From Bacillota bacterium (GTDB lineage Bacteria > Bacillota > UBA4882 > UBA10575), in contig DUNX01000115.1 of NCBI GenBank assembly GCA_012839115.1, positions 1 through 36,690 on the forward strand: 36,690 nt of DNA, written 5' to 3'. Below are positions 7,104-31,638 of the stretch, in pieces (position 1 is the stretch's first letter; the number at the start of each line of letters is the position of its first letter). The position numbers were made by a program, and so were the translations under genes. The notes under the pieces are model-generated. The model was not told the DNA's origin and did not search any database. It saw only the letters and a list, made by a program, of their open reading frames with translations.

Positions 7104-8006
7104 TTAACCCTCTTTCTCTTCTTCTTTCTCTTCTTTATTTTCTTTCTCTTCTTCCTCTGTTTCCTCTTCTTCCTTTGTTTCTTCTTCTATTGCTACTTCC
7201 TCTTCTGCTACTGCTTCTTCTTTTTCCTCCTCTTCTACTACTGCTTCCTCTTCTCCCGCTTTTTCCTCCTTTTCTTCTTCCTCTTCCTCTTCGACTTCAA
7301 AAAAGAGTTCCACACCGTTCCGGGCGTCAAAGACCTCTTCTTGCAGATCGATCCTTAACTCTTCGCCTCTCATATTCTCTTTCTCACGGGAAAGGAAAAA
7401 GCCTCCGGTGAAAAAAAGGATTTCACCGGCATCCTCATAGGTCAACCCGGCGGAGGTAACGGTAAACTCTTTATGCACAAGGAAGACATTCCCCGAAGCC
7501 TCAAAATCCTTCCGCTCAGTCTCGATCTTCAAAAAATTGCAGGAGAGGGTGATCCCTTCTTTTTCTACTTCGCCTGCGGCGTCTTTTACTTCCTCCCTTT
7601 CCAGCCGGACATCCCCACGGAAGACTGCCCAGTCCTCGTCAAAGGCGAATTCCGCTTCCGCCCCTGCCAGTTTCAGCTCATCCTGGAACAGGAGAACCCC
7701 GCCGCTTAACCGTGCCGTCCGGGCACGGTCGCCGTCACCGGTCTTTGTAACCTCGGCAAAAGAGGTATGAATAACCGTATTGCCCTTGGTTATTACCAGT
7801 TCCCCTTCCAAGTAAGTCTTTTCTCCCTCCGTGTCGCCCCACATCCGGTTGATCCCGGTAACCCGGACCGGCTCGTTCTTTTTCTCTTCCCCCCGGACCG
7901 TACCTGAACAAAGGATAAGCAAGAAAAGGAGGAGAGGGAGGAGCAGGATTTGGTTGCCCACCAATGGGGGATGCCGGTCCGGACGGTTCGCTTCCCATCT
8001 TCTCAT
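7104..8006 (-). CDS. lptA: LptA-like periplasmic LPS-transport protein with poly-Glu tail
   Basis: I choose the ATG at 8006, which overlaps the lptC stop as ATGA; the open frame upstream of it duplicates lptC territory. The product is about 300 residues. A signal peptide (ILLLPLLLFLLILCSG) precedes two or three OstA/LptA repeats of beta-strands (GINRMWGDTEGEKTYLEGELVITKG, AEFAFDEDWAVFRGDV, LKIETERKDFEASGNVFLV). LptA bridges LPS across the periplasm between LptC and LptD. The last 63 residues are 39 Glu with Lys, Ala and Val, a low-complexity acidic tail not usual for LptA. The gene closes the lptF-lptD-lptC-lptA run. Confidence 0.85.
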   Translation of the reverse strand: MRRWEANRPDRHPPLVGNQILLLPLLLFLLILCSGTVRGEEKKNEPVRVTGINRMWGDTEGEKTYLEGELVITKGNTVIHTSFAEVTKTGDGDRARTARLSGGVLLFQDELKLAGAEAEFAFDEDWAVFRGDVRLEREEVKDAAGEVEKEGITLSCNFLKIETERKDFEASGNVFLVHKEFTVTSAGLTYEDAGEILFFTGGFFLSREKENMRGEELRIDLQEEVFDARNGVELFFEVEEEEEEEKEEKAGEEEAVVEEEEKEEAVAEEEVAIEEETKEEEETEEEEKENKEEKEEEKEG

Positions 8007-8638
8007 AACTCCATTTCCACTCCTCCCAGCAATTCGTAGTGTTTCTTCTCCCCCCAATAATGGAGGGTTTCCCCGCGAATACAAATTTCTCCTTTTTTCT
8101 CGATAACAACTTCACCGGTAAAAATCAGGTCTTCCGTGTCGATATTCCCCTCCATCCGCCCGGCGGAAATCTGCAAATCCTCCCTGGTGAAGACGACCGG
8201 TTGCGGGCAGGTGATCATCCTGGTATCCAGGTTAATCTCCGCCTCCTCCGTGTTGAAAAACCCTCCTTCCAGCTGGCAACGGATCCCGCCGCCGAGATGC
8301 AGGTGGTCTTTTTTCCTTTGCAGGTGTGCCCATCCGGAGCTGAACGCGAAATCTTCCTCCTGGTCTTCCGTATAAACCACAACCTGCTCCACATTACTGC
8401 AGATCACCTCATTGCCGTTCTTCGCCTGCCAGACCTCTTCCGCCCGGACCTCCCAAAGCCGTCCCCGCTGGTCGCGCCCGACTAAAGTGACGCCGTAAAG
8501 GGTGAATCCTTCTTTACCCGGAGTAATCAGGTCTTTCTCTTTATGCGGCAGAAGTGTCCAGATGATGAAACCGGCAACCAACAGGGTCCACAGGGTTTTG
8601 GAAACGAATAATTTCTGGAGTTTTTTTAAGAAAAGCAT
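8003..8638 (-). CDS. lptC: LPS export system protein LptC
   Basis: The 211-residue protein has one N-terminal membrane helix (LWTLLVAGFIIWTLL) and a periplasmic LptC beta-jellyroll (FTLYGVTLVGRDQRGRLWEVRAEEVW and ISAGRMEGNIDTEDLIFTGEV). LptC couples the inner-membrane LptBFG transporter to LptA. The ribosome site AGGAG overlaps the lptD stop, and the stop overlaps the lptA start, so lptD-lptC-lptA are tightly coupled. Confidence 0.9.
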   Translation of the reverse strand: MLFLKKLQKLFVSKTLWTLLVAGFIIWTLLPHKEKDLITPGKEGFTLYGVTLVGRDQRGRLWEVRAEEVWQAKNGNEVICSNVEQVVVYTEDQEEDFAFSSGWAHLQRKKDHLHLGGGIRCQLEGGFFNTEEAEINLDTRMITCPQPVVFTREDLQISAGRMEGNIDTEDLIFTGEVVIEKKGEICIRGETLHYWGEKKHYELLGGVEMEL

Positions 8639-8649
8639 CTCTCATTCTC

Positions 8650-10926
8650 CTAGCCACTACCGGGCCAGGCAAAACCAGCCTGGCCGCTGCCGAAGGCAAA
8701 GCCTGCTTCTGAAAAGGCCTTGTACCAGATTTGTAGATAATATTCCCGGTCAATAACATTATACCCAAAGTAGATCTGCCGGCAGTGCCAGTCATAGCCC
8801 AATCCTATCCTGGCCCGCTCAAAGCCGTCCCCAAAAAAACTGTAAAGCAGATCAAAATTAGCCGCCAGGTTCCTGGTGATTTTCTGCCGGAACCGGGCCT
8901 CCAGATCCAGAGTGGACCAGACATCGCTGACCGGGTCGTAGACCACGTCCAGTTTTATATTGCGTTCCGTATCCGGTTGGTAACGGAAGGTCAAATTGAC
9001 CAACCCGAACTGGCTTGTATTGGGGTTATAAGAAGTATTAAAGACTAACCGGTTGTATTCGTTCAATTCCCAATTGGCGTTGGCATACACCAAATGCCAG
9101 GGGTTGCTTATTCCGCCCATATTATAACCGCCGCGGAGTTCCGCCCGGAGTTGGGGAGCGTTATAGTAAAGCCGGGACCGGAGGTTTCCTTTAGGGAGAT
9201 AATAAGAGCTGTTGCTGATGAGTTGGGGAAAGGTCAAGGGTGTGTTCCCGCTGCTCTCTACCCAACTGACAGTATTCTCCCAAGAAAAATGAGGGGTAAA
9301 CTTGGTTATCCCCCGCAGATCAATGGACCAGGCCATTCTGGCAAACTCCCCCTCTTCAAGCCAGTAATCCTGCCAGCGTAAAGAACTGCCGAGTTGGAGA
9401 GTGAATTTATCCCGCTGCCAAAGGTTGTGAAAGCTCCGCTGCAGGTGTACATCGGCACGCTGGCCTTCCAGACCGTCAGGGGTTTTAACCAGGTGCAGAT
9501 AATCCAGGTAGACACGGTAATCACCCAGTATCCCCCAACGGTAAACCGGTGTCGTTAACCGCACCGACGGCAGCCGGTTCAGGGAATACCAGTTGGCCGG
9601 CGGCTCCGGCGAATGGTCGGCAGCTTCATAAATCTCCGTCCGCAGTTGATATCCGTTTAAATTGTGGGTGGTCTGCAGGGTATAAATATATTTGGTGGCA
9701 ACATACCCCGTATCCGGCCGTTCCCTGTGGTCCAGACGACCGGAATACGTCACGCTGTGCCGGGAAGACGGCCGCCAGGTTAACTGCACCCGGGGATAAA
9801 AATAGTACTCGGAATATGTGTAGCGTTTTCCCCCTTCCAGATTGATATTAAAGGGCCAAACCCGGTCTCTCCCGTTCAGCACAGCCCGGAGCCGGTACTC
9901 ATCATATTCCAGAGTTCCGTAACTGCTTCCCAGCCACTGTAAAGTGCTCTTCTGCCAGTACTCCGCATCCAAAGAGTAATCGTAGAGAGGACCCAGCTTA
10001 TGAGACCAACCAGTGCCGACCTGGATATCCTGTCCGCCGGTACGGTAGTTGTTAAAATGGTAAATGTTAAAAAAGAGATCCTTCTCCCCTTCGAGGGGAA
10101 AATATTGTTTCACTCCCTGCCCCAAGCCGCTGTACTGAAACCAATCCACCATTAAAAGGCCATAGAAACCTGGTTTCATAAAATAGCGGTAAACCAATTT
10201 AACATAGAACCCGTCATAGTCATTATAACCCACCACCGGCTGGTCGAAATTGCTCTCCTTTTCTTTTAGCGAGACAACCATTACCGGCAGGTAAAAAAGG
10301 CGAACGCCCCCTTCCCAATAGAACAGATGGCGGAAGATGATCTTGTCATCCGGGTAATACTCGACCTTTTTCGCTGTGAGATGGTAATGGGGTTTTTCCC
10401 GGTCACAACCGGTCAATGATGATTGGTGAACAATAGTCAGGTCCCCTTCGATCTCTCCCCGCTTCCCCTGGATAATAAGGGGCTCGTTATCTTCGGTCCA
10501 ATTGAATGAGTAATAATTGTCGATACTTCCCCGGTCTTTTTGGAAATTGTAGATAAAATTATCTCCAGTGAAGGATGTATCCTCTTTCTCAATGGTCACC
10601 TGCTTCCCGGTAAGGAGGTTCTTCTCCAGATTGATAAGGAGTTCTTCGCCGCGGATGGTTACATCCCTGTATGTCAAAACGGCATCCCCTTGTGCGACAA
10701 CTTCTTCCCGCTCAAAATCGTAACGGAGGTTCTCAGCGACCAGCACCCCTTTCTCCCCGCCCGGCGCGCTCGCGGCGCTGGAGTCGCCAGCTAACGCCGG
10801 ATCGCCAGCTAACGCCGGATCGCCAGCTAACGCCGGATCGCCAGCTAACGCCGGATCGCCAGCTAACGCTGGCGGGAAGAAAAAAAAGACCATCATCCAT
10901 AAGAAAATGGTTTTTTTGGTCTGCAA
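8650..10926 (-). CDS. lptD: LPS-assembly outer-membrane protein LptD
   Basis: I start it at the TTG at 10926 because GGAGGTGA sits 7 bases upstream and the protein then begins with a normal signal peptide (QTKKTIFLWMMVFFFFPPALA). Upstream residues in the same frame overlap lptF. The product is about 758 residues. The signal sequence is followed by five ALAGDP repeats, an OstA-type periplasmic domain (LRYDFEREEVVAQGDAV, GEELLINLEKNLLTGK), and a long beta-barrel rich in aromatic alternating strands ending EYYLQIWYKAF. LptD inserts LPS into the outer leaflet. No separate lptE is recognisable nearby. Confidence 0.9.
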   Translation of the reverse strand: MQTKKTIFLWMMVFFFFPPALAGDPALAGDPALAGDPALAGDPALAGDSSAASAPGGEKGVLVAENLRYDFEREEVVAQGDAVLTYRDVTIRGEELLINLEKNLLTGKQVTIEKEDTSFTGDNFIYNFQKDRGSIDNYYSFNWTEDNEPLIIQGKRGEIEGDLTIVHQSSLTGCDREKPHYHLTAKKVEYYPDDKIIFRHLFYWEGGVRLFYLPVMVVSLKEKESNFDQPVVGYNDYDGFYVKLVYRYFMKPGFYGLLMVDWFQYSGLGQGVKQYFPLEGEKDLFFNIYHFNNYRTGGQDIQVGTGWSHKLGPLYDYSLDAEYWQKSTLQWLGSSYGTLEYDEYRLRAVLNGRDRVWPFNINLEGGKRYTYSEYYFYPRVQLTWRPSSRHSVTYSGRLDHRERPDTGYVATKYIYTLQTTHNLNGYQLRTEIYEAADHSPEPPANWYSLNRLPSVRLTTPVYRWGILGDYRVYLDYLHLVKTPDGLEGQRADVHLQRSFHNLWQRDKFTLQLGSSLRWQDYWLEEGEFARMAWSIDLRGITKFTPHFSWENTVSWVESSGNTPLTFPQLISNSSYYLPKGNLRSRLYYNAPQLRAELRGGYNMGGISNPWHLVYANANWELNEYNRLVFNTSYNPNTSQFGLVNLTFRYQPDTERNIKLDVVYDPVSDVWSTLDLEARFRQKITRNLAANFDLLYSFFGDGFERARIGLGYDWHCRQIYFGYNVIDREYYLQIWYKAFSEAGFAFGSGQAGFAWPGSG
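10784..10873 (-). repeat. Five 18-bp tandem repeats encoding ALAGDP in LptD
   Basis: Five 18-base units (TCGCCAGCTAACGCCGGA on the plus strand) lie head to tail; the first four are identical and the last diverges at its end. In lptD they encode ALAGDP repeated at the junction of signal peptide and mature protein. Each copy recreates an A-x-A signal peptidase I site. Confidence 0.95.
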
Positions 10927-10958
10927 ACCCGGGGTCACCTCCGCGTGCGGGTATTTTC

Positions 10959-12032
10959 TCAACGAACCAGCAGGAAAGAAAGCCCCCCTCCCAAGAGCAG
11001 AAAAACGACATTCGGCGCCCAGGCCGCCCAAAATGGGTCAACCAAACCGTTAACACCAAAAGTCCTGAAGACCACCTGGGAAACGAAGAAGATCAGGATC
11101 AAAACAAGGCTGGCGCCGAGCCCTAAAATCTTACCGCTTCGCGCCATTAAGGTGGCGAAAGGCAACCCTAAAAAAGCCAAAACCAGAGAAGCATAGGGGA
11201 CAGCAACCTTCAGGTGGTAATCAACTTCAAAAACCGAAGTATCAAAGCCGCTTCTCCCAAAAAGCTCCATATATTTCTTGAGTTCCGCCCGGGTCATTTC
11301 CTCGGTACTACGCCCACTACTGAAAAAGGTCTCCAGATCCTCACCGACTTCATAGAACATCTGGGTGAAACTGGCCTCTAGTGTCACATGGCCCCCCTCG
11401 TCAAGTTCATAAATGAGCCCTTCATTCAACTGCCAGCGCTGGTTTTCCACCCAACCGTAAGCCGCCGTAACCAGGCTGGGGAAACCTTTTTTCTTAACCT
11501 CATAGATTAAAATCCCTTCCATCCGCTGGTTTTCTCTATTCACACGCCGGATATAAAAATAGGTGTTCTCTGACCCTTTAAAAAAGATATTCTCTTCAAA
11601 AAGGGACTCCTTCTCCCGGGAAAGCAACCTCCGTAATTCTTGTTGAAAACGTTCATTGGCGCCCGGGACCACATAATCATTGAAGAAGAAAACGCCAGTG
11701 GAAAGGAGGAAGGTAAAAATGACCAGTGGAGCAACAAGCTTGGGGAAACTAAGCCCATTGGTGCGGATGACATCAAGTTCGCGGTCTTTGGCCAACCGTC
11801 CCAGGCTGAGCAGGATGCCAAAAAGCACCGCCGCAGGAACCGCATCCGTCAGGATCATGGGGATCCGGTAGTAAACTAAGAGCATGACTATGGAAAATGA
11901 GGTCCTTTTCCCCACCAACAGATGGTTGAGTTCAAAAAGGAGGTTGCCGATCATCAAGACCAAAAAGCCGGCTGCACAAAATATGAGTTGAAGCAGATAT
12001 TCCCGGAGTAAATAACGGTGGACAATCTTCAT
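10959..12032 (-). CDS. LptF/LptG-type LPS export permease
   Basis: The protein is about 357 residues of the YjgP/YjgQ family. N-terminal helices (YLLQLIFCAAGFLVLMIGNLLF; AVPAAVLFGILLSLGRLAKDREL, the typical cytoplasmic coupling loop) are followed by a periplasmic jellyroll (about 130-260) and C-terminal helices (VAVPYASLVLAFLGLPFAT, LGASLVLILIFFVSQVVF). With LptB it extracts LPS from the inner membrane. I prefer the ATG at 12032 (MKIVHRYLLREYL), though a GTG 15 bases upstream is possible. Only one such permease is in the window, so LptF versus LptG cannot be decided. Confidence 0.9.
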   Translation of the reverse strand: MKIVHRYLLREYLLQLIFCAAGFLVLMIGNLLFELNHLLVGKRTSFSIVMLLVYYRIPMILTDAVPAAVLFGILLSLGRLAKDRELDVIRTNGLSFPKLVAPLVIFTFLLSTGVFFFNDYVVPGANERFQQELRRLLSREKESLFEENIFFKGSENTYFYIRRVNRENQRMEGILIYEVKKKGFPSLVTAAYGWVENQRWQLNEGLIYELDEGGHVTLEASFTQMFYEVGEDLETFFSSGRSTEEMTRAELKKYMELFGRSGFDTSVFEVDYHLKVAVPYASLVLAFLGLPFATLMARSGKILGLGASLVLILIFFVSQVVFRTFGVNGLVDPFWAAWAPNVVFLLLGGGLSFLLVR

Positions 12033-12066
12033 TACCCTATTTTCCACCCCTTTTCGTTCTTGACCG

Positions 12067-16510: not shown

Positions 16511-19500
16511 TTAAAACCAGATGTTATAAAAGACCCGCCACTGCCATCCTTGGTTTGTTGAATACTCTCCCAACAGCGAAAGGTTGAGGGAGAGCCGTCC
16601 TTCCAAGGTCCAGACCTCTTCCGACAAAGTGCTCAGGCTCCGGCTATAGGAAAGAAAAACATCCCGGCCCAGCGCCTTGCCGACGTTCATCCGCAAACCA
16701 CCGAGATCCCTATCCTGTTCCAGGCTGAAAAGATCAACCTGAATCAACTCCCGGAACTCATCAAAAAACGGTCCCAGGATCCCGTCGGTCACTGCCGCGA
16801 TATTTCCCCTGATAAGCTTGATTAGGGAAAGACTCTCGGGGTCCTGTAACTGTTCGGACCAGTTGAGCAAGGCAAAAATCTCTTCTCTACTCCGCAACGG
16901 GTTGGACGAAAGAGTAAAGAACAAATCATCACCGGCCCAGCCCTGTGTAGCCAGGGTAATCTGAGTGCCGGTTAAGAAGAGCGACGCCTCCAGATCAAGG
17001 TAGGGCACGGCACCATATTCCGGCCGGAATTCCGCTTTAGCCTGGGTAACCTGGAAAGTATCCCCATAAACATTGACCCAGCCACGGCCGGCACTGAGTT
17101 CACCGGTAATTTCCGGTGCGGATAATCTGCCGCCCACATGCAAATTACCGTTCAGGGGAATACTGGCCAGACCGTACTGGCGAAAATACACGTCCCTCCC
17201 GGCTTTCAAATCAAGGTCAAGCCGTAAATCGAAATTGGCCGGAGGACCGTTGGAAGAAGCCAGGCTGATGCGGGTCTTTTCTACTAAAACATCTCCTTTG
17301 AGCAGAGGGTCGGTTACCGGACCGGTAAGCGAAACTTCCGCATCGAACTCCCCGTCAAACACGGCACTGGTATAATAGAGGTTATGGCCGCCAATCTTGA
17401 GCTCCAGCTTCTCCGGGCGAATTCCGCTCATCAAAATATAACCTTCGCCCCGGAAATTTCCCCGGCCGTAACGGCCGGCGAGTTTTTCCAGGTCTATCCG
17501 GTCCCTGGCAAATTTCAGTTCGATCCCGACACCCCGTAATTTTTCCGGCAATCCGGGGAGATTCCCGCTGACTCCTGCGGCTTTTACCTCTCCGTCCAGA
17601 TAAAAGCGGCCTTTTTCTTCTTCCAGGGTCAGATCCCCGTGGATGGTTCCACTGCCGAACAATGGTTGGGGAAGGAAAAGGTTGAAGAGGGCCATCTCTG
17701 CCCCGGCCAAAACCAACTGCAATTCGGTTCCGCCGGTCTCTTCTGTTGCGACCGGCGGTAACAAGAGCGGTTTGAACCAGTTATAATCCAGGGGAATCCG
17801 GCCGTGGAAAGAAAACTTCTTCTGGAGTTCTTCTCCTTCTAAATAAAGGCCCGACCCGGCCAGCCGGCCGGAGACGGTAAGCCCGGGGAAAGAGAAGCCA
17901 TTTACCGCCAGTCCTTTGCCGGAACCGGTAAACTCACCGGTAACACCTTGGCGGCTCATTTCTACCGCCAGTTGGAGATCAACCTCTCCACTGGAGAATT
18001 TGCCGTAACCGGCCAAAACAGCCAAGGGGGGCAGGGAAAAATCCTCCATATCCAGTATTGCCCGGAATTCCTGGCCCGGCCTGTAGAAAGCGGTGGCCGC
18101 CAATTGTCCCTCCCCGCCGGACTCCATAATGAGCAGGCGGTTTAGAAATACCGTAGAACCCTGGATCTGAAGATCGGCTTCACCGGTTACGGGAAGGTCT
18201 CCCAGCAGTCCCTCTTCCAGCCGGGCCATGACCGTAACTGCCGGACTCTCCAGGGGCCCGAAAAGCTGAAAAGTACCGGTAACCCGTCCGGTCACCGCTA
18301 CCGCCGGCGAGATCTCGAAAAGCCGTAGAAATTCGGAAACTTCTGCTTTTTCCAGCCATAATTCCAAATTCATTGCGGGTTCGTCTTTAAAGTCGACCTC
18401 TCCGTAAGCCTGTAATTCCTGGGATCCCCGGAAGACCTTCATCTCCTCTATTGACAAGACCTCTTCTTTCCACTGGACCTTACCGGTGACCTTCTCCAGG
18501 GGAAACCCGGCGATATTCAACTGATCAGCCTCAACCTTACCGGAGATCACCGGTGAAGCAAAAGCACCCTTTATTTTGGCATCCAGTTTTAAAAAGCCGG
18601 TGAGTTCCTGATTATAGCCGGGAATCTCTAAAGCGGACAAGGAAAAGCCATCGGCTGTGACCGCAAGGTCAAGGCCTTCATTGCCAATGACCCCGCTAAC
18701 CACCAGTTCTTCCCGGCCCTTCTGCAGTCTGGCATCGCTCAGGTGGATTTTCCCGTCTTTCCAGGAAAAGTAGATCTCCCCACGGTCGACCGGGAAGTTC
18801 CCGACGAGCAAATCCCCGGCAAGAAGATAACCGTTAACCACAGGCCGGGGGCCGCCGCGGGCTGTGAACGCCAAATCAGCCATGCCTTTGAGCGCGGGGT
18901 ACTCCTGCACCGGGCGACCGGTCAGCGACAACAAAGAGACCAGATCGTCGCAGAAAAAATCATTCCCTTCCGCCCTTATCTCATAGGCCAAGCCATCTTC
19001 CCAGGATACTTCTCCGTCAATCGCCAACCGGCCACCGCCGGTCAGGAAATAAGAGTCGGCGATCCGCAACCGGCTGCCTTCCATCTCCGCCCGCAACAAT
19101 AACCGGCCGGGGTGTGAAACCCCTTCATGACAGAGGCCATGTAGCTCCAGCCATCCGGCGCCTGTAGGTCCGGCTTCTTCGCGTACGTGTTCAAAAAGGA
19201 ATGTACCGGATAGTTTTCCTGACAAACCGGCGATCTGGGCCGCCGCCGGACCCAGCCATTCCGGGCAGAACTCCAGACTGCGACAGACCGCCTCCCCATA
19301 ATAGCGGCCGCCCTCCGGCTCCCACCAGCCGGTGAGAACACCCCGGCCGCCCGTGGTTTCCTCCAGGGTCAGTCCGGCGGTGAACCGGGTACCGTCCCAG
19401 GAGTATTTTCCTGCCAGAGTCCGGTATTCCCATTCTGCGATGGCGCCGCCGGTAACCTCCAGCCGGCCCTTACTCTGCAGGCGGGATAAAGGCCCGAAAA

Positions 19501-20950
19501 AATCGGCTTGAAAATCCCCCCGTCCGGCAAGGGCGGGTATTTTTTGTTGTAAATCGCTTCCGGGAAAGAATTCCGCGAGGGGAAGATCCGCCAGGTTTAT
19601 TCCCTTGCCTGTGATCTCCAGGTCAACAACTGGTTCTTCTGCCAGGCCGCACAGTTCTCCCGTCACCAGGAATCTGCCGCCAAAAGCGTTAAATTCCAAG
19701 CGGTCAACGGTAAACCCGTCGTCATCAAGGCAGTAGTCTCCGGCCAGCCACAGATCATTAATACGCCATCCGGTTCCCGGGATCCGTAACCCGGCGCCGG
19801 CCAGACGGATCTCTCCTTTTACTTCGGGACTGGATAAGGCCCCCCGGATCTGCAGGTTCACTCCGGCTTTCCCCGCCGGTTCCAAGTCGCGCAAAAACGG
19901 CCAGAGGCTTGTCCATTCCGCCAAGGGAAAATCCTCCGCAGACAACTGCAGGTCCACATAGAATGTCTCTTCCGGCTGGATCCGGCCGGAAAACGCCAGG
20001 CTCCCTCCGCGGTAATACCCGCTAAACTTCTTAACATCAATCTCTTCCGGAGAAACAATAAATTCTGCTTCTATCCCTTCCAACGGTTCCGGAATTCCGG
20101 CATACTCCGCAGTCACTCCAGCCGTTTTTACCCGGGCATAATCCAAAGTCGTGCCCTTTTGCTTTTGCCAAAGCAGGCGCAGGGAAAAATCGGCCATCCC
20201 TTCAACCAAAGAAAGTTCCGGTAAGAACTGAAAGCGGGTGTTGACCAAGCCCGCCCATAACGCAGCCGAGGAATTGCTGGAACTTATTTCATAGTAGCCG
20301 TGCTTGTCTTGGTAGCAATGCTCAAAAAACAACCTGCCCCGGGCCTGGGAGTCAAGAACACTGGAAAACCGCCCGGCCGCGGTGACCTGTGGATATGCCC
20401 TCAGGTCCACCCGCCCGTGGATACTGGTGAAATCCCCCCACGGCCATTGCCTGGATATAACCGGGTCTCTCCCCGTCCTTACCTTAAGATCACCGCCGCT
20501 TATTCCTACTACGATCCGCGGCATGTTCACGGGTTCTTTTTTCTTCCTGATTTTGGGAAAATTGAGGCCGCCCCGTTCCGTAGCGTCCAGCCACAAAACA
20601 GGCCCGTCCAATTCCACACCACGCAGGGCCTCACTGGTTTTTTGCCCAAAAAGAAGAGCAAACCAGTTACAGCGGATCCGCACCCGTTCCGCAGTAAGCA
20701 ACGGTTGGCCATCCAGGGTATAGACCTTTACCCCCACCAATTCCGGGCGAAAAAAAGAAAAACGCAGCCCTTCGATGTCAACCTGAATCAGCCAGTGTTC
20801 TTCTAATGCTTCTTCTATTTTTTCCGTCAGGGTCATCAATGTTTTGTTATAAACAGAATTAGCACGCGGACTGAAGAGGAAAAAAAACACCCCGCCTATA
20901 AGCAGGCCTGCGCAGAGAAGAAAGATCAAGAACCTTTTTACAGGGGCCAC
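16511..20950 (-). CDS. tamB: TamB/AsmA-like translocation and assembly protein
   Basis: The giant protein (about 1480 residues) has a single N-terminal membrane helix (FLIFLLCAGLLIGGVFFFLF). A very long beta-rich periplasmic stretch of repeated AsmA/DUF490-like units follows, ending in the conserved TamB C-terminal domain (SAPEITGELSAGRGWVNVYGDTFQVTQAKAEF in outline, then LNWSEQLQDPESLS). TamB-type proteins span the periplasm and are implicated in phospholipid transport and barrel assembly. I favour the GTG at 20950, 7 bases from GGGGAGG; in-frame ATGs at 20971 and 20956 are alternatives. It lies between the S55 protein and bamA on one strand. Confidence 0.9.
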   Translation of the reverse strand: MAPVKRFLIFLLCAGLLIGGVFFFLFSPRANSVYNKTLMTLTEKIEEALEEHWLIQVDIEGLRFSFFRPELVGVKVYTLDGQPLLTAERVRIRCNWFALLFGQKTSEALRGVELDGPVLWLDATERGGLNFPKIRKKKEPVNMPRIVVGISGGDLKVRTGRDPVISRQWPWGDFTSIHGRVDLRAYPQVTAAGRFSSVLDSQARGRLFFEHCYQDKHGYYEISSSNSSAALWAGLVNTRFQFLPELSLVEGMADFSLRLLWQKQKGTTLDYARVKTAGVTAEYAGIPEPLEGIEAEFIVSPEEIDVKKFSGYYRGGSLAFSGRIQPEETFYVDLQLSAEDFPLAEWTSLWPFLRDLEPAGKAGVNLQIRGALSSPEVKGEIRLAGAGLRIPGTGWRINDLWLAGDYCLDDDGFTVDRLEFNAFGGRFLVTGELCGLAEEPVVDLEITGKGINLADLPLAEFFPGSDLQQKIPALAGRGDFQADFFGPLSRLQSKGRLEVTGGAIAEWEYRTLAGKYSWDGTRFTAGLTLEETTGGRGVLTGWWEPEGGRYYGEAVCRSLEFCPEWLGPAAAQIAGLSGKLSGTFLFEHVREEAGPTGAGWLELHGLCHEGVSHPGRLLLRAEMEGSRLRIADSYFLTGGGRLAIDGEVSWEDGLAYEIRAEGNDFFCDDLVSLLSLTGRPVQEYPALKGMADLAFTARGGPRPVVNGYLLAGDLLVGNFPVDRGEIYFSWKDGKIHLSDARLQKGREELVVSGVIGNEGLDLAVTADGFSLSALEIPGYNQELTGFLKLDAKIKGAFASPVISGKVEADQLNIAGFPLEKVTGKVQWKEEVLSIEEMKVFRGSQELQAYGEVDFKDEPAMNLELWLEKAEVSEFLRLFEISPAVAVTGRVTGTFQLFGPLESPAVTVMARLEEGLLGDLPVTGEADLQIQGSTVFLNRLLIMESGGEGQLAATAFYRPGQEFRAILDMEDFSLPPLAVLAGYGKFSSGEVDLQLAVEMSRQGVTGEFTGSGKGLAVNGFSFPGLTVSGRLAGSGLYLEGEELQKKFSFHGRIPLDYNWFKPLLLPPVATEETGGTELQLVLAGAEMALFNLFLPQPLFGSGTIHGDLTLEEEKGRFYLDGEVKAAGVSGNLPGLPEKLRGVGIELKFARDRIDLEKLAGRYGRGNFRGEGYILMSGIRPEKLELKIGGHNLYYTSAVFDGEFDAEVSLTGPVTDPLLKGDVLVEKTRISLASSNGPPANFDLRLDLDLKAGRDVYFRQYGLASIPLNGNLHVGGRLSAPEITGELSAGRGWVNVYGDTFQVTQAKAEFRPEYGAVPYLDLEASLFLTGTQITLATQGWAGDDLFFTLSSNPLRSREEIFALLNWSEQLQDPESLSLIKLIRGNIAAVTDGILGPFFDEFRELIQVDLFSLEQDRDLGGLRMNVGKALGRDVFLSYSRSLSTLSEEVWTLEGRLSLNLSLLGEYSTNQGWQWRVFYNIWF

Positions 20951-20989
20951 CCCCATCCCTCCCCGGTGCATACCCTAGGTAATTCAACG

Positions 20990-22816
20990 TTAAGGTGCAG
21001 ACTTTGTTCCGGAAACCCCGGTATTTTCTTCCCCATTTTCCTCGTTCTCCGTGGCTTCCTCGGCAATGACCTTGACAATTACCTGTTTTTCCCCAACCAA
21101 ATAATAGTTGGTGGGGACCGTCCATTTCTTACCGGAAGAAGATTCGGCGTAATCATCACCGGGCTCTTCCGGTGGATAGAGCGGATAAGCCTCCACTACC
21201 AGCTCATTATTGGCCGGGCGGGTAAGGAACTTCTTCACCAATTCCTCCAGCGAAGTAACGGATTCCAAATCCTCCAGCCCTTCTTCAGTACCCACCTCCG
21301 GTATCTCCCCGGCTTCTTCCTCTTCCTCGCCCACAGTTATTTTGTAACTGCTGCCGTGGGCGGAAAGGATCCATTCCCCGGGGGAGAAATCCTCCGGGAT
21401 CTTTACTTCCAACGGGACATCCACTTCTTCCCCGCGGAAGGGAAGAATCACCCCGGTCACAGTCAACTCCTCTCCGGGGTAAAACTCTTTCTTGGGTAGA
21501 TCAAGCCTGGTTAACCTGGCACGCAAACGCTCCGCGGTAATTTCAATACCCACCGCGATCTCATCGATCTTTACTTGTAGAAATTCATTATCCGTCAGCA
21601 ACTGGAGAAACCTGCCGATTTCACTAATTGCCGCAACGGCTATATCTTCACCGTAATAAATGTTCTCCCGTTCGATAGCGGGGAGATTTTCACCGGTCAC
21701 TTTAAAACGGATCGTCGCCGTACCGGGTCCGATTCTGTCCAAAGTCCGGTCGATAAAACTCAAAACCCCTGCCAATGCCAACCCGGGTAAAAGCTGCTCA
21801 TCACGGATGGCCTGAAAACTGTACTCCCCTTCCCTGCCGGTTTCCTTATCCAAAACCCGTGTTGACACTTTAACTGTTTGCGGTATCGTCCCCAGTTCAC
21901 CCGCAACGCCGGCGCCCCGGTCCCTGGTCACCCGGGCCCGGACGGGAAGTGCGGTTCCCAGCTTAAATGACATGATGTTACTGTTGATCACATCATGGAT
22001 ATAGGCCCCTCCCGCCCCATACTCCACAACACCCCGGTTCAAAAACGGATGCCCGAAGGCAAGGAAACGCCGGTTTTCAATCCAAGTAATAGTGCCCAAG
22101 GCCGCCACCTGGTAATCACCGTCGGCCAATAGCACAGAAAAAGAGCCGCCGGGAAGAAAATTCCGTTCCTCTTCGTTTTTTCTCTTCGCCCGCGCCTGCG
22201 AACCGGCGGCTACCGGAAAAACCAGGTCCTCCGGTAAGGAGGCTGAAAGCAAACGAAAAGCCCGCGGGTTTGGATCGGAAAGCAAAAGGGGAGTAGCCAC
22301 CGGCCGGGCCTGCAAAAATAGATCGCCGGTGTTTTTCTCCCCAAAGGCCACTCCTGTAAACCCATCCAGACCGCCGCGTTGAAAATAATAAACCTCCCGG
22401 CCCAGGTTTACCGGTTTATCCCAAAGCTTCAACATGTCTTCGATGGGAGTCACCAAACCGTAACGGGGATCGGCATTGGTAAAACCGTAACCGACCGCTC
22501 CGGCCAGCCGGTTCTCAATAAAGACCGGACTACCGCTCATTCCCGCAGAAATGCCCGGCCTGTCTCCTGTAAATTTGATTAAAATAAAATGGCGTACCGG
22601 GCCGCTCCCCTCGACCACCCCAACAATCTCCACGGGAAAAGATTCGATCTTATCCCCTCTTAATACCGTATGACACCCGGCTTTCATCCCGGGCTTAATC
22701 TCCGCCAGCGGGAAAAAATTGGGCGCCGTCTCGCCTGCTGTTTCTGTAAAAAGAAACGGGAACAAAAGGAGGAATAAAAACCAGCCCCTATGGAGTGATC
22801 TCATTTTTTTTACCAT
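20990..22816 (-). CDS. SpoIVB-type peptidase S55 domain protein
   Basis: The 608-residue exported protein has a signal sequence (WFLFLLLFPFLFTETAGE). The S55 region has the conserved opening LAEIKPGMKAGCHTVLRGDKIESFPVEIVGV, the Ser motif GMSGSPVF (S94/S96) and the His motif LAFGHPFLNRG (H256). Here the Ser motif precedes the His motif, as in the large S55-domain proteins of diderm bacteria and unlike sporulation SpoIVB. No PDZ domain is evident. The C-terminal half holds beta-sandwich-like segments and an acidic linker (EEEEEAGEIPEVGTEE). Its location between transglycosylase and tamB suggests an envelope role. The ATG at 22804 is an alternative start. Confidence 0.85.
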   Translation of the reverse strand: MVKKMRSLHRGWFLFLLLFPFLFTETAGETAPNFFPLAEIKPGMKAGCHTVLRGDKIESFPVEIVGVVEGSGPVRHFILIKFTGDRPGISAGMSGSPVFIENRLAGAVGYGFTNADPRYGLVTPIEDMLKLWDKPVNLGREVYYFQRGGLDGFTGVAFGEKNTGDLFLQARPVATPLLLSDPNPRAFRLLSASLPEDLVFPVAAGSQARAKRKNEEERNFLPGGSFSVLLADGDYQVAALGTITWIENRRFLAFGHPFLNRGVVEYGAGGAYIHDVINSNIMSFKLGTALPVRARVTRDRGAGVAGELGTIPQTVKVSTRVLDKETGREGEYSFQAIRDEQLLPGLALAGVLSFIDRTLDRIGPGTATIRFKVTGENLPAIERENIYYGEDIAVAAISEIGRFLQLLTDNEFLQVKIDEIAVGIEITAERLRARLTRLDLPKKEFYPGEELTVTGVILPFRGEEVDVPLEVKIPEDFSPGEWILSAHGSSYKITVGEEEEEAGEIPEVGTEEGLEDLESVTSLEELVKKFLTRPANNELVVEAYPLYPPEEPGDDYAESSSGKKWTVPTNYYLVGEKQVIVKVIAEEATENEENGEENTGVSGTKSAP

Positions 22817-30373: not shown

Positions 30374-31638
30374 TCACCCGGCGTTTGCAAGAACAGGATA
30401 TGCGCCAGGCCAGAGAGATCTGGGAAGAGTCCTTTAACGACAAACCGGCCTTTATTGACTGGTATTTTCGCCGGCGGTTCCGCCCTGAAGAAGGAATAGG
30501 GATCTTCTCCGGTTCCCTGCTCCTCTGCAACCTGCACCTGGCGCCGTACCGGGTCAGGCTGCGCGGCCGGACTTTTCCCTCCGCCTACCTGATCGGCCTG
30601 GCCACAAGGGAAGAATACCGCCGGCAAGGACTGGCCAAAGAGCTTCTGACCTTCACCTTGAGATCCCTAAGGAAAAAAGGGGTCTTTTTTACGTTCTTAA
30701 TGCCCTTTGCGATGTCTTTCTATACCCGTCTGGGCTGGGGTATCTGTGGGCAGCACCGGATCTACCGCCTGTCGCCGGCAGCGATCTTCCCGGAAAAAGA
30801 GAGTTCCGGCACCCCGGGAAAAACAGAAAGAGCCGGAAAGGAGAGTTCACCGGAACCGGCGGTTGCCGCCGGGAAGGAGACCACACTGGAACTGGCGGTT
30901 ACGGGAAAGGAGACTGCGCTGGAACCCGCTATTACCGAAAAGGAGACCACGCCGGACCCGGCCGTTTTGGACCGGATCTACCGGGGTTGGAGTTCTTCTC
31001 TTGACGGTTGCTTGTTGCGGACAGAAGAGGACTGGGAGGGCCTGCTTTTTGACCACTTCCTCGACGGGGGGGAGATCTGGCTCCACAAAGAAACCGGCTC
31101 CGGACCGACAGCCTACGCCCTCTTTTATCCCGGCGCCAAAGAGAATCTCCTGCGGGAAGCAGCGTACCTGACGCCGGCGGCCGGCCGCCGGCTATTGCAG
31201 TATTTAGCGGCGGTAAATAACAAACCTCTGGTTTGGAGCGCGCCGGATGCGGCCCTGCCTTTTCCTTTACCGGATCCGGAGGTGAAACCGGTTTTCTTGG
31301 GACGGATCACCGATCTCAAAGCCGCGCTGGAGTTTCCTCTTTACCCGCCGGGTCTGACAGGCGCCTGGCGCCTGCGGGTGGAAGATCCCCTTCTTCCCGA
31401 AAATGACGGGGTTTTTCTAGTGACGGCAAATGGCGATGGGAAAATATCCGCCACCCCCGTCCCAGGCATGGATGTTGATTTGACTTGCACCACCGGCGGG
31501 TTGGCCCGTCTTCTTTCCGGGACGGCCGGCCCGGAGGAGGCAGTAAAAAGACGCCTTCTGACCGGCGACGACAAGCTGGTTTCTTTCTTTCTCCGGCTTT
31601 TCCCCAAAGGTGACCTGTACATGAATGACTACTTTTAG
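30370..31638 (+). CDS. Eis-like GNAT acetyltransferase with SCP2-like C-terminus
   Basis: The 422-residue protein has an N-terminal GNAT domain with the acetyl-CoA loop RRQGLAKELL (about residue 83 onward), preceded by YLIGLATREEY. A second GNAT-like region and a C-terminal SCP2-like fold (LTCTTGGLARLLSGTAGPEEAVKR) match the Eis layout. The acceptor is unknown; Eis relatives acetylate aminoglycosides or proteins. Between the first two domains is a low-complexity repeat linker. The TTG start overlaps the previous stop (TTGA) and has AGGAGGAG 5 bases upstream, so it is translationally coupled to the DUF2156 gene. Confidence 0.88.
   Translation: MITRRLQEQDMRQAREIWEESFNDKPAFIDWYFRRRFRPEEGIGIFSGSLLLCNLHLAPYRVRLRGRTFPSAYLIGLATREEYRRQGLAKELLTFTLRSLRKKGVFFTFLMPFAMSFYTRLGWGICGQHRIYRLSPAAIFPEKESSGTPGKTERAGKESSPEPAVAAGKETTLELAVTGKETALEPAITEKETTPDPAVLDRIYRGWSSSLDGCLLRTEEDWEGLLFDHFLDGGEIWLHKETGSGPTAYALFYPGAKENLLREAAYLTPAAGRRLLQYLAAVNNKPLVWSAPDAALPFPLPDPEVKPVFLGRITDLKAALEFPLYPPGLTGAWRLRVEDPLLPENDGVFLVTANGDGKISATPVPGMDVDLTCTTGGLARLLSGTAGPEEAVKRRLLTGDDKLVSFFLRLFPKGDLYMNDYF
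30835..30969 (+). repeat. Degenerate 33-bp minisatellite within the Eis-like gene
   Basis: Four in-frame units (36, 33, 33 and 33 bases) encode variants of GKETTLELAVT: GKESSPEPAVAA, GKETTLELAVT, GKETALEPAIT, EKETTPDPAVL. They form the linker between the first GNAT domain and the rest of the protein. Divergence among units suggests an old expansion. Confidence 0.85.

Follow-up and report, generated by a model that had tools for sequence, protein, structure and literature searches.

How a gene for an outer-membrane assembly protein comes to carry five copies of one hexapeptide where its signal peptide ends, and what these copies do to the mature protein, are the questions raised by an lptD-like gene in the window, meaning the whole 36,690-nucleotide stretch of DNA analysed here. 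The original prediction had described a perfect repeat in which every unit offers a signal-peptidase site, so that the mature protein might begin at several positions.

An array of five near-identical units

The array is located as follows.

10783 to 10872, minus strand: array of five 18-bp units, in frame, coding for PALAGD five times (residues 19 to 48)

Read in codon phase, the units run CCAGCGTTAGCTGGCGAT, then CCGGCGTTAGCTGGCGAT three times, then CCGGCGTTAGCTGGCGAC. The middle three are identical, while the first and the last each carry one synonymous change, and all differences between units are silent. Thus, the prediction of five tandem units stands, yet the repeat falls slightly short of perfect. 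Its interval (10784 to 10873) and its phase (ALAGDP) were also one base off with respect to the codons. TRF reported a period of 18, 4.8 copies and 100% matches at 10784 to 10869, and a pattern search with the 18-mer returned four exact tandem copies plus one with two mismatches at 10784 to 10873; dinucleotide shuffles gave a mean of 0.02 matches. At lag 18, the perfect run measures 68 bases, compared to 12 or fewer in 20 simulated sequences; for these, the scan took every third period between 10 and 100. The 18-bp repeat is therefore real and far beyond chance. As at VNTR loci, its units are in tandem, in register and nearly identical. The 18-bp unit length preserves the reading frame, which is open throughout, and A-L-A followed by G occurs in every copy, giving five ALA/G motifs in total (the slash marking the potential cut); both points agree with what had been predicted.

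The host gene is lptD-like

Identification of the gene rests on the features listed here, together with sequence profiles and a structural model.

8650 to 10926, minus strand: lptD-like gene, 758 amino acids, TTG start at 10926 (conserved start, profile, fold, cysteines)
10924 to 10942, minus strand: translation start region, Shine-Dalgarno sequence GGAGGTGA (10935 to 10942) followed by TTG (10924 to 10926), from the DNA alignment of three congeners
10959 to 12047, minus strand: lptF/lptG-type permease gene, directly upstream of lptD (PF03739, E 8e-87)
8003 to 8638, minus strand: lptC-like gene, directly downstream of lptD (TIGR04409, 55.4 bits, cut-off 38; PF06835)
7104 to 8084, minus strand: lptA-like gene (PF03968, 25.4 bits, cut-off 20.4)

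The longest open reading frame starts at 11031, whereas the start common to three congeneric genomes is the TTG at 10926; this start and its Shine-Dalgarno sequence are kept in both congeners and lie just past the stop codon of the LptF/G gene. Scans of the single protein sequence against Pfam and NCBIfam stayed below the LptD cut-offs, including that of Pfam LptD_N. A profile built from seven relatives matched one entry in the PDB, the LptD chain of 7omm (E 1.1e-7, N-terminal part). An AlphaFold2 model (pLDDT 78.7, pTM 0.58) contains an N-terminal beta-taco and a large beta-barrel, and in a Foldseek search of this model against the PDB the top 37 matches were all LptD (best E 5.9e-24, TM up to ~0.5). 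The gene also sits inside an lpx/lpt/bam cluster, with homologues of LptF/G, LpxD, OmpH, BamA, LptC and LptA nearby. By profile, fold and gene neighbourhood it is thus lptD-like, as originally proposed, and its homologues occur in relatives up to the class and phylum level.

The signal peptide, beta-taco and beta-barrel are shared with proteobacterial LptD (PDB 5iv9, 4q35, 7omm) and with the LptD of Veillonella (PMC5491611), and all have a cysteine within the N-terminal domain and another close to the C-terminus. Different from those proteins, the present one has only two cysteines, Cys174 and Cys715, and a long repeat-derived linker. Both cysteines are invariant among 17 relatives, and the disulphide that joins the two domains in known LptD proteins could form between them. 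In Negativicutes and Halanaerobiales, LptD had gone undetected in earlier work (PMC5007114); it was later found in Veillonella, where the gene lies outside the main cluster (PMC5491611), in contrast with the arrangement seen here.

The gene set points to an outer-membrane-bearing (diderm) Firmicute as host. The named relatives are Bacillota metagenome-assembled genomes, one of them labelled Hydrogenispora sp. Elsewhere in the window, the C-terminus of the LptA-like protein is a long low-complexity tail rich in Glu (7117 to 7292, minus strand), and an open reading frame at 20990 to 22816 (minus strand) with a GMSGSP motif resembles, by eye, SpoIVB-type serine peptidases; it adjoins a very long TamB-like reading frame (16511 to 20971).

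The array is confined to one genome

Two congeneric genomes (G001 and G002), 85% identical over the mature LptD-like protein, both lack the PALAGD array, although the DNA on either side aligns closely with theirs right up to it. G001 has SSPVVAGAPDMPGEPGGDKGVL and G002 has SSPVIAGEPGAAPGSPGIPGGTGGEKGVL where the gene with the array has PPALAGD(PALAGD)x4 SSAASAPGGEKGVL. At the end of the congener signal peptides, PVVAGA or PVIAGE stands opposite the first PALAGD in the alignment, and the junctions there read SSPVVAG-APDMPGEPGGDKGVL and SSPVIAG-EPGAAPGSPGIPGGTGGEKGVL; the array is therefore a duplicated ancestral cleavage-site hexapeptide. Its predicted position at the signal-peptide junction is confirmed by this alignment, and its absence from both congeners argues for the recent origin that had been proposed.

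A wider comparison gave the same picture. Among 26 named homologues, the N-terminal coding DNA contained no tandem repeat, with best lag runs of 5 to 9 bases versus 68 here. The 18-mer had no second site in its own genome, and none of 298 other genomes of the phylum contained a 26-mer taken from the array, with up to two mismatches allowed; a dispersed element was rejected on these grounds. The one match in a plasmid search, to a staphylococcal SdrG-type repeat protein at 75% identity, was taken as similarity of composition. Copy-number variation among strains is plausible; the comparison covered one genome per species.

One predicted cleavage site and a longer linker

The array overlaps two features of the encoded protein.

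10861 to 10926, minus strand: signal peptide MQTKKTIFLWMMVFFFFPPALA, residues 1 to 22, predicted cleavage before Gly23 (hydropathy, AxA positions, congener alignment)
10741 to 10860, minus strand: linker from the predicted cleavage site to the first conserved strand, residues 23 to 62, of which 26 derive from the array (pLDDT, variable length in relatives)

The hydrophobic core of the signal peptide ends at residue 17 and the first ALA occupies residues 20 to 22, that is, 3 to 5 residues past the core, the usual spacing for cleavage by signal peptidase I. The later ALA copies lie 6, 12, 18 and 24 residues further away. The first ALA/G also aligns with the signal-peptide ends of the congeners, PVVA/G and PVIA/G. 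From these positions, signal peptidase I most likely cuts at the first ALA/G, before Gly23. We would expect one main mature N-terminus rather than several, since only the first motif is at the normal distance.

Assuming a cut before Gly23, the linker would comprise 40 residues, up to the point where conservation among the homologues begins. In most other family members the first strand follows the signal peptide after only a few residues, and both the length and the sequence of this segment vary among relatives, with no conserved linker sequence. In the AlphaFold2 model, pLDDT is below 50 for residues 1 to 58 and strands begin at residue 61; the other rows of the alignment start after the linker, such that the low pLDDT is partly built in. 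The model is nevertheless consistent with a linker that would be disordered in vivo.

Probable slippage elsewhere in the genome

A second in-frame expansion is present in the window. In a protein that looks GNAT-like by eye, about four imperfect in-frame units of 33 to 36 bp (30832 to 30966, plus strand) lengthen a spacer between domains; in congener G001 this spacer contains one stretch resembling a unit and lacks the extra copies. This expansion is of the same kind as that in the lptD-like gene and fits ordinary slippage. Across ~261 kb of the genome that we sampled, tandem arrays were not rare, and no other had at least four identical copies. The comparison suggests that the lptD-like array is the youngest-looking case of an ordinary process, and the purest found. 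As RNA, the array folds better than shuffled sequences (z -4.3), whereas as DNA its folding is unremarkable (z -1.45); we rejected the RNA structure as a sign of function, a repeated near-palindromic unit folding well by construction.

Origin and consequence of the array

Taken together, we consider it probable that the array is a recent, lineage-specific, in-frame slippage expansion of the cleavage-site hexapeptide which lengthens a disordered linker and is tolerated rather than selected. Slippage during replication, or unequal recombination, would have multiplied the 18 bp that encode this hexapeptide. Signal peptidase I would still cut at the first ALA/G, and the remaining copies would only lengthen the disordered linker that precedes the beta-taco at the N-terminus of mature LptD. 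Little functional change would be expected, and tolerance seems more likely than selection: with the linker varying so much among relatives, neutral tolerance is the simplest reading. That said, no other sampled array reached such a number of identical copies, and selection or a local feature, for example the near-palindromic unit, could have played a part.

The idea that repeated AxA sites yield mature LptD of several N-terminal lengths draws on the allowed residues at -3 and -1 and the Gly at +1 in each of the five motifs. We regard it as improbable, as only the first motif combines the usual distance from the core with alignment to the congener site. Moreover, substrates of signal peptidase I are membrane-anchored, and what lies past the first cut would have lost its anchor and no longer be a substrate. 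We give similarly little credence to a selected, adjustable spacer, in which strains would switch copy number by slippage and thereby tune, through linker length or alternative N-termini, how far the LptD N-terminus reaches to dock on the LptA bridge. The array is in frame with silent differences only, it lies just ahead of the domain that takes LPS from LptA in known LptD, and linker lengths do differ among relatives; however, it is found in one genome only, and a few residues of unconserved sequence suffice in most other homologues. Least probable of all is an assembly artefact. This is a draft metagenome-assembled genome of 148 contigs, and tandem repeats can be mis-sized, but a single read of the usual 150 bases is long enough to cross a 90-bp array, the frame is open, and each of the outer units is set apart by a synonymous change.

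Relation to known repeats and significance

Related repeats are known elsewhere. In Neisseria, opa genes carry phase-variable pentamers in the region encoding the signal peptide, and frame changes switch expression. Here too, a short repeat in tandem lies in the part of an outer-membrane protein gene that encodes the leader, yet its 18-bp unit keeps the frame. In Borg elements, the amino-acid tandem repeats are described as young, near-perfect, in-frame DNA repeats that encode disordered stretches, often in extracellular or membrane proteins (PMC9879509). By that description, the lptD-like array is similar in being young, nearly perfect and in frame and in encoding a predicted disordered stretch, and differs in that it is one short array, lies in an envelope-assembly gene on a bacterial chromosome and is built from a signal-peptidase site. 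No publication describing tandem repeats at the signal peptide of LptD came up in our literature searches.

The array indicates no new mechanism. The seed of the repeat is the signal-peptidase cleavage site itself. LptD is usually essential where it has been studied, and in this LPS-assembly protein a 30-residue repeat is tolerated where the signal peptide meets the first domain. For this uncultured lineage, the array is a candidate strain marker.
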